The notes beneath the pieces are model-generated. The model searched no databases, had not been told where the DNA came from, and saw only the letters and a program-made list of their open reading frames with translations. A stretch of DNA of 64,000 nucleotides from Pyrinomonadaceae bacterium (GTDB lineage Bacteria; Acidobacteriota; Blastocatellia; Pyrinomonadales; Pyrinomonadaceae). The position numbers and the translations under genes are program-made. This document shows, in pieces, positions 9,222-62,738 of the stretch (position 1 is its first letter; every line of letters starts with the position of its first letter). Where the stretch lies: positions 62,001 through 126,000 of the forward strand of contig JACMJZ010000026.1 of NCBI GenBank assembly GCA_014380365.1, written 5' to 3'.

Positions 9222-9295
9222 AAGTTCAGAGTTCAAGCTTTAGCTTGCGTCTTTCGCTGCCAGGAGCAACCTGAAGGTTGAACTCAGAACTACTA
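9222..9295. repeat. REP element (bipartite) between atpD and atpC
   Basis: Left half 9222-9248 ends in CAAGCTTTAGCTTGC; right half 9266-9292 begins GCAACCTGAAGGTTG. Each half folds into its own mini-hairpin, with G:C in one half and C:G in the other. The element starts ten bases after the atpD stop. Confidence 0.85.
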
Positions 9296-9717: not shown

Positions 9718-9790
9718 GAAGTTTAGAGTACAACCTTCAGGTTGCCATTTTGCGCAATACGCAAGCTAAAGCTTGTACTCTGAACTACTA
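9718..9790. repeat. REP element between convergent atpC and pdxJ
   Basis: Left half contains CAACCTTCAGGTTGC (about 9731-9745); right half contains GCAAGCTAAAGCTTG (about 9761-9775) and ends ACTCTGAACTACTAG. The stop codon of pdxJ lies in the terminal bases of the element. Confidence 0.85.
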
Positions 9791-11308: not shown

Positions 11309-11377
11309 GTTTGGAGTACCGCCTTCGGGCGGACATTTCTAAAAAGAACCCTCGTAAAGGCGGTACTCCAAACTTGC
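11309..11377. repeat. Hairpin of the GGAGTACCGCC family
   Basis: GTTTGGAGTACCGCC at 11309-11323 pairs with GGCGGTACTCCAAAC near 11359-11373; the left side also contains the local hairpin CCGCCTTCGGGCGG. Located between two minus-strand genes, just upstream of the nucleotidyltransferase start. Confidence 0.75.
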
Positions 11378-17197: not shown

Positions 17198-17267
17198 GGT
17201 GTATAGAGTCCAAGCTTTAGCTTGCGTGTTTGGGCGGCCCCAACCTAAAGGTTGTACTCTATACGCC
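17198..17267. repeat. REP element, TATAGAGTC variant
   Basis: Left half GTGTATAGAGTCCAAGC... ends CTTTAGCTTGC; right half CAACCTAAAGGTTG ends GTACTCTATAC. The outer word is TATAGAG instead of TTCAGAG, and both arms changed together, preserving the pairing. It lies between the mutase and deacetylase genes. Confidence 0.8.
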
Positions 17268-21624: not shown

Positions 21625-21714
21625 GAAGACAAACTAAAGTTTGAACTCTGAACTTCTAGAGCGTGCCGAATCTCGATTGACCGCGAAGATCAACTAAAGG
21701 TCAGAACAGCTGAA
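21625..21714. repeat. REP half-element and a degenerate second half
   Basis: At 21625-21660 the right-half REP (ACAAACTAAAGTTTG then AACTCTGAACTTCTAG) starts eight bases after the oppF stop, without a left half. A degraded copy (AACTAAAGGTCAGAACAG) follows at about 21684-21714. The arrangement suggests that half-elements can exist alone. Confidence 0.7.
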
Positions 21715-22607: not shown

Positions 22608-22680
22608 AGTAGGACAGGCATTCCAGCATGTCCTAGTTCTCGACAGGGCTTCTGGAGTAGGACAGGAATGTCTGTCCTAC
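22608..22680. repeat. Tandem palindromes of the GGACAG family
   Basis: TAGGACAGGCATTCC...GTCCTA (22610-22634) and TAGGACAGGAATGTCTGTCC...A (22658-22679) are two palindromes; the stop codon of the following minus-strand permease gene (22677-22679) lies inside the second. A relative occurs at 59849. Confidence 0.8.
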
Positions 22681-25302: not shown

Positions 25303-25374
25303 GCAGTTCAGAGTACAAACTTTAGTTTGCTCTTCCCATGCGGCAAACTAAAGTTTGTACTCTGAACTTCTGAC
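25303..25374. repeat. REP element, AAAC/GTTT type, between permease genes
   Basis: Left half 25303-25330 (GTACAAACTTTAGTTTGC) and right half 25343-25369 (GCAAACTAAAGTTTGTAC) are a near-perfect inverted repeat with a 12-base loop. It ends just before the stop codon of the upstream permease gene. Located inside the operon. Confidence 0.9.
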
Positions 25375-33149: not shown

Positions 33150-33250
33150 TGTCAGTAGTCAGTGGTCATTTGTCAGTGGTAGTACCGACAACTGCCTACT
33201 GACACTGACTAGGGACAACTGACCACTGACCACCGACCACTGCCAACTGA
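33150..33250. repeat. Hairpin of the CAGTGGTCAGTGG word family
   Basis: The left arm contains GTCAGTAGTCAGTGGTCA and TTGTCAGTGG; the right arm TGACCACTGACCACCGACC and ACTGCCAACTGA. It begins directly after the kinase stop codon, between kinase and RDD genes. Confidence 0.8.
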
Positions 33251-37663: not shown

Positions 37664-37746
37664 GCAGTTCAGAGTTCAAACTTTAGTTTGCTCTTCGTAT
37701 AGTGCGCGCGACGCTCAAGCGGTTCAGAGCTCAAACTTTAGTTTGC
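37664..37746. repeat. Two tandem REP left half-elements
   Basis: Half-elements at 37664-37691 and 37719-37746 share GTTCAGAG, then (T/C)TCAAACTTTAGTTTGC, in the same orientation, separated by about 27 bases. They lie between the Ntn hydrolase start and the RayT stop. Together with the inverted copy at 38469 they flank the transposase gene. Confidence 0.85.
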
Positions 37747-37759
37747 GTTTTCGTTAACA

Positions 37760-38359
37760 CTATATATCCCACTTCTTTCCGTAGTCTAGAATCGGATAGT
37801 TCAGCCAAATTCGCTTGGCTTCTTCCGGGCCAACTTCTTCCAAATATTGTCGGGCACTGGACCAGGGCCAATCCGACCACCGCCTCACGTAACCGTGATG
37901 CACAGGATTATGGTGAACATAATTGAGCGTAGCCCAGAAATGTCGTTCGGACCTCATCGGTTTCTCGAAACAGTTGTACCAGACTTTGCGACCCCGTCGA
38001 TTATCAGCAAGGTTCCACTCGAAGGAAGAGCGGCCATGAAACTGACCAAGTTTACCTCGCAGTTCCTTGATTCTCTCGGTTTTCAGGAAGAGATGATAAT
38101 GGTTCGGAAGTATGCACCATGCATATATGCGCGATGCAAAAGAGTCGCAAATCCTAAGAACTTCTGATTCGCACACGGTCATCCGTTCCGGGTCTTTTCC
38201 AATCACTGGCACATGCTCGTAACAGGATGAGGAAACTAGATACTGCCGCGATACTTGGAAATCGAGATGTGGCGGACTATGCCAGGGTAAACTGCGGGCT
38301 CTTCGAAGCTCAAGTACCCTCCTCCTGTCACTTTCCTTCATCTTTCGCCAGTCGTACAT
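37760..38359 (-). CDS. REP-associated tyrosine transposase (RayT, Y1 type)
   Basis: A 199-residue IS200-like HUH transposase. The HUH motif is PNHYHLF with His87 and His89, and the catalytic Tyr is in LNYVHHNPV (Tyr147). The N-terminal segment (RSLPWHSPPHLDFQVSRQYL) followed by SSSCYEHVPVIG and the C-terminal DWPWSSARQYLEEV are typical of the RayT/TnpA-REP lineage, which is domesticated and does not carry insertion-sequence ends of its own. Instead it is flanked by two REP half-elements on one side and an inverted one on the other. It is therefore the likely processing enzyme for this REP family. Known RayTs cleave REP single strands at a GTAG-type site. Confidence 0.9.
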   Translation of the reverse strand: MYDWRKMKESDRRRVLELRRARSLPWHSPPHLDFQVSRQYLVSSSCYEHVPVIGKDPERMTVCESEVLRICDSFASRIYAWCILPNHYHLFLKTERIKELRGKLGQFHGRSSFEWNLADNRRGRKVWYNCFEKPMRSERHFWATLNYVHHNPVHHGYVRRWSDWPWSSARQYLEEVGPEEAKRIWLNYPILDYGKKWDI

Positions 38360-38468
38360 GGCGAATGTGTATTAACTCGGAGGACGAAAGACAAGCTAGA
38401 CCGTTAACTCTGAAGCTCGTGAGACTTACCAGAGGTCTTGTTACTGTCAAAACTGGGAAACCAGAAAA

Positions 38469-38498
38469 GACAAACTAAAGTTTGAACTCTGAACTACT
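38469..38498. repeat. REP right half-element, inverted relative to 37664
   Basis: GACAAACTAAAGTTTG then AACTCTGAACTACTTG. It is the reverse complement form of the tandem left halves on the other side of RayT, and its end overlaps the stop of the downstream HHH gene. Confidence 0.85.
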
Positions 38499-41059: not shown

Positions 41060-41088
41060 AGAAGTTCAGAGTACAACCTTCAGGTTGC
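41060..41088. repeat. REP left half-element upstream of argF'
   Basis: GAAGTTCAGAGTACAACCTTC then AGGTTGC, the C:G mini-stem variant, without a right half. It directly adjoins a CGCAAAG-type hairpin. Confidence 0.75.
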
Positions 41089-47308: not shown

Positions 47309-47380
47309 AAGCAGTTCAGAGTTCAGCCTTGAGGTTGCCGAATGGGCAGACAACCTGAAGCTTGGAATCTCAACTTCTTG
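47309..47380. repeat. REP element upstream of argH
   Basis: Left half CAGTTCAGAGTTCAGCC then TTGAGGTTGC, right half CAACCTGAAGCTTGG then AATCTCAACTTCTTG. Several mismatches between the halves, so this is an older copy. Confidence 0.75.
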
Positions 47381-53073: not shown

Positions 53074-53150
53074 CAAGAAGTTCAGAGTACAAGCTTTAGC
53101 TTGCGTCTTTGGAGAACCGGCAAGCTAAAGCTTGTACTCTGAACTTCTTG
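53074..53150. repeat. REP element with perfect 31-bp arms
   Basis: Arms 53074-53104 and 53120-53150 are perfect reverse complements with a 15-base loop. Each arm contains GTACAAGCTTTAGCTTGC or its complement, and the ends are CAAGAAGTTCAGAG. This is the least decayed copy in the window and the best model for the family. Confidence 0.95.
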
Positions 53151-57189: not shown

Positions 57190-57319
57190 AGAAGTCAGAC
57201 AGTCAGAGATCAGAGGTCAGAGATCGGAGATCGGAGGTCAAAAGACAAGGCAAAGGGTTTTCCATACTGATCTCTGACCTCCGACTTCTGATCTCTGACC
57301 TCTGACTTCTGACCTCTGG
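57190..57319. repeat. Hairpin of the GTCAGAGGTCAGAG word family
   Basis: Left arm built from GTCAGAGATCAGAGGTCAG and AGATCGGAGATCGGAGG, right arm from CTGATCTCTGACCTCCGAC and TTCTGATCTCTGACC. About 130 bases long, the longest hairpin in the window, between livH and livM. Confidence 0.85.
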
Positions 57320-62208: not shown

Positions 62209-62670
62209 ATGCGGTTTGTTAGAGAGAGCTTTATCGCAGCAACCCCCGAGCGCGTTTTCGAATTTCATGAACAGCCAAATGTCCTGACCTTGCTGCTGCC
62301 GCCTTGGGAGACCGCGCGCGTAATTCAGCCCGCGAAGATTTCGGAAGTTGGTTCTCAGGCGATAGTTGAGACCAGGGTGTTTGGCCCGATAACTGTGCGC
62401 TGGGTCGCGGAACACACACTCTATGATCCGCCACGCGTGTTCGAGGACATACAGTTGAAGGGACCTTTTCGGAGTTGGCGGCATCGACACGTGGTCGAGC
62501 CGCATGCTGATGGAGCTCTGCTGCGTGATGAAATAGACTACGAACCGCCCCTGGGATTTTTAGGGCGTGCGTTTGCGCCGTTGCTTGTTGAGCGGCGGCT
62601 CAGGAAGCTTTTCCATTACCGTCATGAAGTCACCCGTCGATGGTGTGAAGGACAAAAGGAAGTCGTTTAG
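62209..62670 (+). CDS. SRPBCC/START-fold ligand-binding protein
   Basis: 153 residues with the SRPBCC pattern: RFVRESFIAATPERVFEFHE, then LPPWETARVIQPAKISEVGS and LRDEIDYEPPLGFLGRAFAP, ending LLVERRLRKLFHYRHEVTRR. Proteins of this group bind hydrophobic ligands or act as cyclases; the ligand is unknown. The stop codon is part of a REP element. Confidence 0.82.
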   Translation: MRFVRESFIAATPERVFEFHEQPNVLTLLLPPWETARVIQPAKISEVGSQAIVETRVFGPITVRWVAEHTLYDPPRVFEDIQLKGPFRSWRHRHVVEPHADGALLRDEIDYEPPLGFLGRAFAPLLVERRLRKLFHYRHEVTRRWCEGQKEVV

Positions 62671-62738
62671 AGTACAACCTTCAGGTTGCCCTCCTGCTTA
62701 CACAGCAAGCTGAAGCTTGTACTCTGAACAGCTTGAGT
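62665..62738. repeat. REP element containing a stop codon
   Basis: Left half GTTTAGAGTACAACC then TTCAGGTTGC at 62665-62689, right half GCAAGCTGAAGCTTG then TACTCTGAAC at 62705-62729. The TAG at 62668-62670 is the stop codon of the SRPBCC gene. Mini-stem variants differ between halves (C:G and G:C). Confidence 0.85.

Follow-up and report, generated by a model that had tools for sequence, protein, structure and literature searches.

The systems closest to the locus considered here are REPtrons, in which the gene of a REP-associated tyrosine transposase (RAYT, or TnpAREP) is flanked by inverted REP elements that are dispersed genome-wide. The Mb RAYT of Marinomonas cleaves in vitro a REP with a 5-bp stem, a T12-T13-N14-A15 loop and the tetranucleotide GTAG two bases off; T12, T13 and A15 matter, N14 does not, and the guide helps to choose the cut (PMC8266576). 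In the literature that we searched, RAYT-linked REPs nearly always have GTAG or GTGG as their guide, and the role of the guide in cut-site choice has been tested by mutating one flexible system. For Acidobacteria, that literature describes only class 3 elements and TIRYTs (TIR-associated tyrosine transposases), the TIRs of the latter being described as unrelated to REPs (PMC3733652). No description of AGAG or GGAG REPs in Acidobacteriota was found in it (the literature searched omits most subscription papers).

The present locus lies in a 64,000-nucleotide stretch of a Pyrinomonadaceae genome (the window, below). It is very probably a REPtron, with a single-copy RAYT gene that is immobile and vertically inherited and lies between inverted copies of its own recognition element. 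The REPtron is a known kind of locus; what is new here is that the guide word varies.

The transposase gene and its flanking elements

The gene and the elements around it are these:

37667..37690, plus strand: REP element, outer left, GTTCAGAG-TT-CAAAC-TTTA-GTTTG
37722..37745, plus strand: REP element, inner left, with one guide mismatch (GTTCAGAGC), 18 bp from the 3' end of the gene
37760..38359, minus strand: RAYT/TnpA-REP gene, an ORF of 199 aa with the HUH motif H87-Y88-H89, Tyr147 and YVHHNP; scores just under the NF047646 cut-off
38392..38415, minus strand: REP element, right, decayed (4 mismatches), 33 bp from the RAYT start
38471..38494, minus strand: REP element, outer right, inverted, 112 bp upstream of the RAYT start

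An earlier note on this DNA had assigned the gene to the REP lineage of Y1 transposases, and the LPNHYHLF motif with H87 and H89, together with Tyr147, bears the assignment out. Against the NCBIfam family NF047646, 'REP-associated tyrosine transposase', the protein has an E value of 3e-21 and 75.7 bits, just under the curated cut-off of 80; its closest relatives score on either side of that cut-off (82.3, 79.6 and 78.4 bits), and the Pfam Y1_Tnp score also lies below the Pfam cut-off. A profile built from 47 relatives matches E. coli TnpAREP (4er8; E 9e-10). The AlphaFold model (pLDDT 89.9) has as its best PDB match the same structure, TnpAREP with bound REP hairpin (E 5e-8), with ISDra2 and IS608 ranking behind. 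H87, H89, N146, Y147 and N151 are invariant across the 47 relatives, and the single catalytic tyrosine, the HUH motif and the Y...NP signature of RAYT/TnpAREP (class 2 Y1) proteins are all present. Membership of the IS200/IS605 family was considered and rejected: TnpAREP is the better match when set against IS608 and ISDra2, the Y...NP signature is present, and the gene is single-copy. Purifying selection acts on the gene in relatives: of the eight pairs with measurable dS, seven have a dN/dS of 0.03-0.09, and the closest pair (L039/L043, dS 0.12) has 0.20. Some of the dS values are above 1 and rough, and comparisons with the gene itself are saturated.

The same note had placed two elements to the left of the gene and an inverted one to its right; that arrangement stands, with boundaries a few bases narrower than it gave, and the fourth, decayed element at 38392-38415 had been overlooked. 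The decayed copy matches the place of an intact upstream element, ~30 bp from the start, in the three related genomes with a full-length RAYT (G007, G010 and G011).

The element is 24 bases long and its consensus, from 53 copies in the same genome and read guide first, is TCAAGNA-GTTY-AGAG-T-W-CAAxC-TTYA-GyTTG; the general build is 5'-GTNY-AGAG-TN-(5-bp stem)-TTYA-loop. DNA folding yields a hairpin of 5 bp with a 4-nt loop at -2 to -3.6 kcal/mol. Stem pair 4 covaries, being GC in 20 copies, CG in 18 and AT in 12 of the 53, which places the stem under structural constraint. The single-stranded guide GTNYAGAGT is conserved as strongly as the stem. Where a canonical REP carries GT[AG]G at 0-2 nt from the stem, the tetranucleotide here is AGAG, 2 nt away.

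The RAYT is likely to disperse these elements. Each would serve as a strand-specific, single-stranded DNA target (for example GTTCAGAGTTCAAACTTTAGTTTG). The HUH nuclease would bind the folded strand, reading its stem, TTYA loop and AGAG guide, and would cut at a nearby dinucleotide picked by the guide, with CT predicted from A3-G4 of the guide word; strand transfer would copy the paired unit into new intergenic sites. Together with the transposase, the word itself has changed in related lineages, to GGAG, TGAG, GTTG or GTAG. As a trace of cutting, we sought a constant dinucleotide beside the elements, CT where the guide is xxAG and CA where it is GTTG; none was found in the flanks.

Copies in the window and the genome

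The pattern GTTYAGAGTNCAANCTTYAGNTTG, with up to 3 mismatches, has 19 matches in the window against 0.00 expected from shuffles. About a dozen copies beyond those at the RAYT had been noticed earlier; they are indeed scattered through the window, and the figure was an undercount, since 16 lie apart from the three at the RAYT:

9224..9290: inverted element pair (REPIN)
9721..9785: inverted element pair
17201..17264: inverted element pair
21630..21653, minus strand: single element
25306..25367: inverted element pair
41064..41087, plus strand: single element
47314..47374: degenerate inverted pair
53080..53144: inverted element pair
62665..62729: inverted element pair

The whole genome (G000; 4.98 Mb in 34 contigs) has 232 matches at the same tolerance, against 3 for a reversed control pattern, and 91 copies keep the guide and loop pattern exactly, with 0 mismatches. 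Context was read from 464 kb of the genome. In that sequence 22 of 31 element clusters are inverted pairs with guides outward and hairpins 12-24 bp apart, and only 6 of 54 elements fall inside ORFs of at least 150 aa, which make up 81% of the sequence (the ORF calls behind this count are mechanical). The elements are thus mostly intergenic inverted pairs (REPIN/BIME units), with ~230 copies in this genome. An Rfam search of the window gave no match.

Copies sit near the 3' ends of genes, at a median distance of 20 bp in this genome, as would suit transcription terminators or mRNA-stabilising hairpins to which the flanking of the RAYT is incidental. That explanation is very improbable: conservation of the single-stranded guide equals that of the stem, which has just 5 bp, the consensus has no T-run after the hairpin, the copies come as inverted pairs, and the guide word differs with the RAYT lineage.

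Other hairpins and repeats share the window and the genome. Hairpins of a second family, whose guide is GGAG and whose stems are CCGCC (GTTTGGAGTACCGCC-TTYA), occur at window positions 11309-11373; GGAG guides are found at 19 places in the genome, most of them of this family. No RAYT matching it was found in the genome, and we read the family as an orphan or as the remains of a system whose RAYT was lost. Window positions 57190-57318 and 33187-33250 hold degenerate tandem repeats of 7/21 bp (CTGACCT-type and GACCACT-type), and a ~230-bp repeat elsewhere in the genome (L129:9943-10177, that is G000:C5:49943-50177) has 73-81% identical copies in the related genome G004 (L149, L150 and L165).

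The search for other RAYT genes that the earlier note had proposed turned up five further RAYT-like loci in the genome, at C33:105976, C5:503996, C7:278160, C21:195829-196302 and C20:528819 (L070, L071, L072, L074 and L076), each with inverted hairpins of its own; the clade considered here has one member in this genome. Wherever inverted repeats were found at other RAYT-like loci of the genus the hairpins are different, those of C5 and C21 having GTAG, and no AGAG/TTYA element lies within 300 bp of any of these loci, the five included. At 22609, 22657, 22672 and 28057 the window also contains short words from the GTAG-type hairpins that accompany the C5 and C21 RAYTs.

The same site in the genus

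The RAYT clade is present in five of 16 genomes of the genus: G000, G007, G010, G011 and G004. The G011 copy has one internal stop, and that of G004 is a remnant, residues 112-199 only, between intact elements at the ancestral site. The gene order argB, helix-hairpin-helix (HhH) gene, RAYT, asparaginase-like gene is common to all five genomes, as are inverted elements on both sides of the RAYT. Because all five share the chromosomal site, the RAYT has been fixed in place since their ancestor; it is single-copy and vertically inherited. The REPtron arrangement, which the earlier note had recognised correctly, is thus repeated at the same site in four further genomes, with similar hairpins beside ~50 distant relatives (next section). 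A RAYT flanked by a different repeat in sister strains, which was to have counted against that arrangement, was looked for in the genus and not found.

An element-rich sister without the RAYT, which was likewise to have counted against it, was found clearly once, and is best read as a case of loss. G015 (98% complete) has 92 copies and other RAYTs, with none of this clade even at an E value of 0.01. Its sister G004, ~85% identical, keeps only the remnant, a sign that the RAYT decays in the G004/G015 sub-lineage, so that G015 likely lost its own; the sequence compared between genomes amounts to 1.2 Mb, and the G015 counterpart of the locus lies outside it. That G015 keeps its 92 copies means that they can persist without the RAYT. 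Two other genomes, G001 and G012, also lack a RAYT of the clade; exact copies number 22 in the first and 12 in the second.

It is possible, though we doubt it, that the locus is a REPtron by descent whose RAYT no longer mobilises anything, having taken up a host role (hairpin processing in single-stranded DNA, or REP-based regulation), and that the copies are relics. The single copy, the fixed site across the genus and the strong purifying selection in relatives all suit such a role, as does the persistence of copies in G015. The distribution of copies points the other way. At comparable sites G004 and G015 have four clusters in common and about six that are not, so that only some copies are shared at ~85% identity; 91 copies in G000 match guide and loop exactly; and copy number is higher in genomes with a RAYT or remnant (one-sided Mann-Whitney p 0.02, n 5 vs 11, uncorrected for relatedness and completeness). 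No clean pair of empty and occupied element sites was obtained from G004 and G015, the intergenic DNA across sites being unalignable at ~85% identity; because that DNA is too diverged for empty sites, mobility is argued from the positions that differ between them. We continue to prefer a REPtron whose RAYT probably disperses its elements.

Guide words across phyla and known systems

A scan of one genome per species found 57 loci, in Acidobacteriota, Verrucomicrobiota, Planctomycetota, Calditrichota, Lentisphaerota, Electryoneota and others (phyla are taken from sequence-record labels, and most of the genomes are MAGs). Hairpins with a 5-bp stem and a TTYA loop lie beside the RAYT, mostly on both sides, in ~50 relatives. 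The guide, 2 nt from the stem, is AGAG at ~20 loci (L009 being counted by its one-mismatch stem), GGAG at ~20, TGAG at 4, GTTG at 4 and GTAG at 3, the last only in a few Verrucomicrobiota relatives. Most loci keep to a single word; at L023, L025, L026, L034, L037, L048, L053, L056 and L063 one or two copies deviate.

The elements are abundant in the Pyrinomonadaceae genome, and a RAYT might have landed by chance in a genome already rich in hairpins, the flanking being coincidental. This is hardly credible: such flanking recurs in ~50 relatives across phyla, which contradicts coincidence, and other RAYTs of the genus are without such hairpins. Moreover, one MAG holds three of the loci (L012, L013 and L020), two flanked by GGAG and the third by AGAG, despite only 3 exact AGAG copies genome-wide.

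On the RAYT tree 12 changes of guide word are required; with the words shuffled the figure is 24.3, and 0 of 200 shuffles came as low; in this clustering, co-evolution and shared host descent are confounded. Genome counts covered the words AGAG, GTTG, GGAG and GTAG. AGAG copies number 178 in G000, 161 in G019, 100 in G004, 92 in G015 and 81 in G034, and 3 or fewer in genomes of GTTG or GTAG RAYTs; in G020 and G022 they are barely above, or not above, controls. GTTG copies are concentrated in Verrucomicrobiaceae genomes (G025 38, G029 22, G030 15, G031 10); GGAG copies number 68 in G017 and 24 in G021, and GTAG copies 57 in G025, 29 in G027 and 20 in G028. There are exceptions: G025, G029 and G030 each hold two guide words, and in G032 GTAG (37) exceeds GGAG (19). 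We consider it evenly balanced whether the guide word (AGAG, GGAG, TGAG, GTTG or GTAG) evolves with the transposase across phyla, with stem length and TTYA loop fixed, as a natural series of guide re-programming.

GTAG/TTYA elements also number 102 in G034 (L025) and 51 in G017 (L013), where the RAYTs found are flanked by AGAG or GGAG; another or a lost RAYT is to be expected for them. Two more distant RAYTs of Lentisphaerota (L059 and L061) have inverted flanking hairpins with GTAGTA before a GCGC-type stem. A protein residue that might track the guide was also sought. At position 139, Arg is found in 37 of the 42 xGAG proteins and in no GT[AT]G protein; we make no claim for it, because a single independent pair is supported and the column is the best of 199.

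Five natural guide words occur with one fold and the same hairpin; therefore, guide swaps between close RAYTs can test cut-site choice, and would also test the co-evolution of repeat family and transposase. REP/RAYT populations are now placed in abundant, mostly uncultured phyla.

Two of the described systems share the phylum. The class 3 TnpA-Y1 of Planctomycetes and Acidobacteria also lies beside high-copy or inverted repeats, but has an HVH motif, a Y....Q signature and a CnGA foot (PMC6006769); the TIRYTs of Acidobacteria likewise pair a Y1 transposase with inverted repeats (PMC3733652). Subclass 2.8 TnpA-Y1 proteins (~199 aa) have NHYH, W[YH] and Y[IV]H.NP motifs (PMC6006769). The RAYT resembles them, by motif alone, in NHYH, W127-Y128 and YVHHNP (with V and H for the I and Y of YIHYNP); they come from Cyanobacteria, with a proline-rich N terminus and long canonical GT[AG]G REPs, whereas 5-bp stems and an AGAG guide are found here. 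The E. coli TnpAREP/REP-BIME system (group 2, subclass 2.2; PDB 4er8) shares the HUH-Y fold, a gene between inverted REPs and hundreds of paired intergenic copies; its REP, in contrast, is long and bulged with GTAG at the foot, and its protein has W94-Q95, whereas in this family the tryptophan, W127, precedes H, F, C or Y. The REPtron Mb of Marinomonas sp. MWYL1 (group 3, subclass 2.5 TnpAREP) is alike in its 5-bp perfect stem, its T-T-N-A loop, a guide 2 nt off and REPs concentrated beside the RAYT (PMC8266576), and differs in having GTAG as its guide and DH[LF]H as its RAYT motif, where this locus has AGAG, NHYH and, before the guide, a conserved GTNY of its own.
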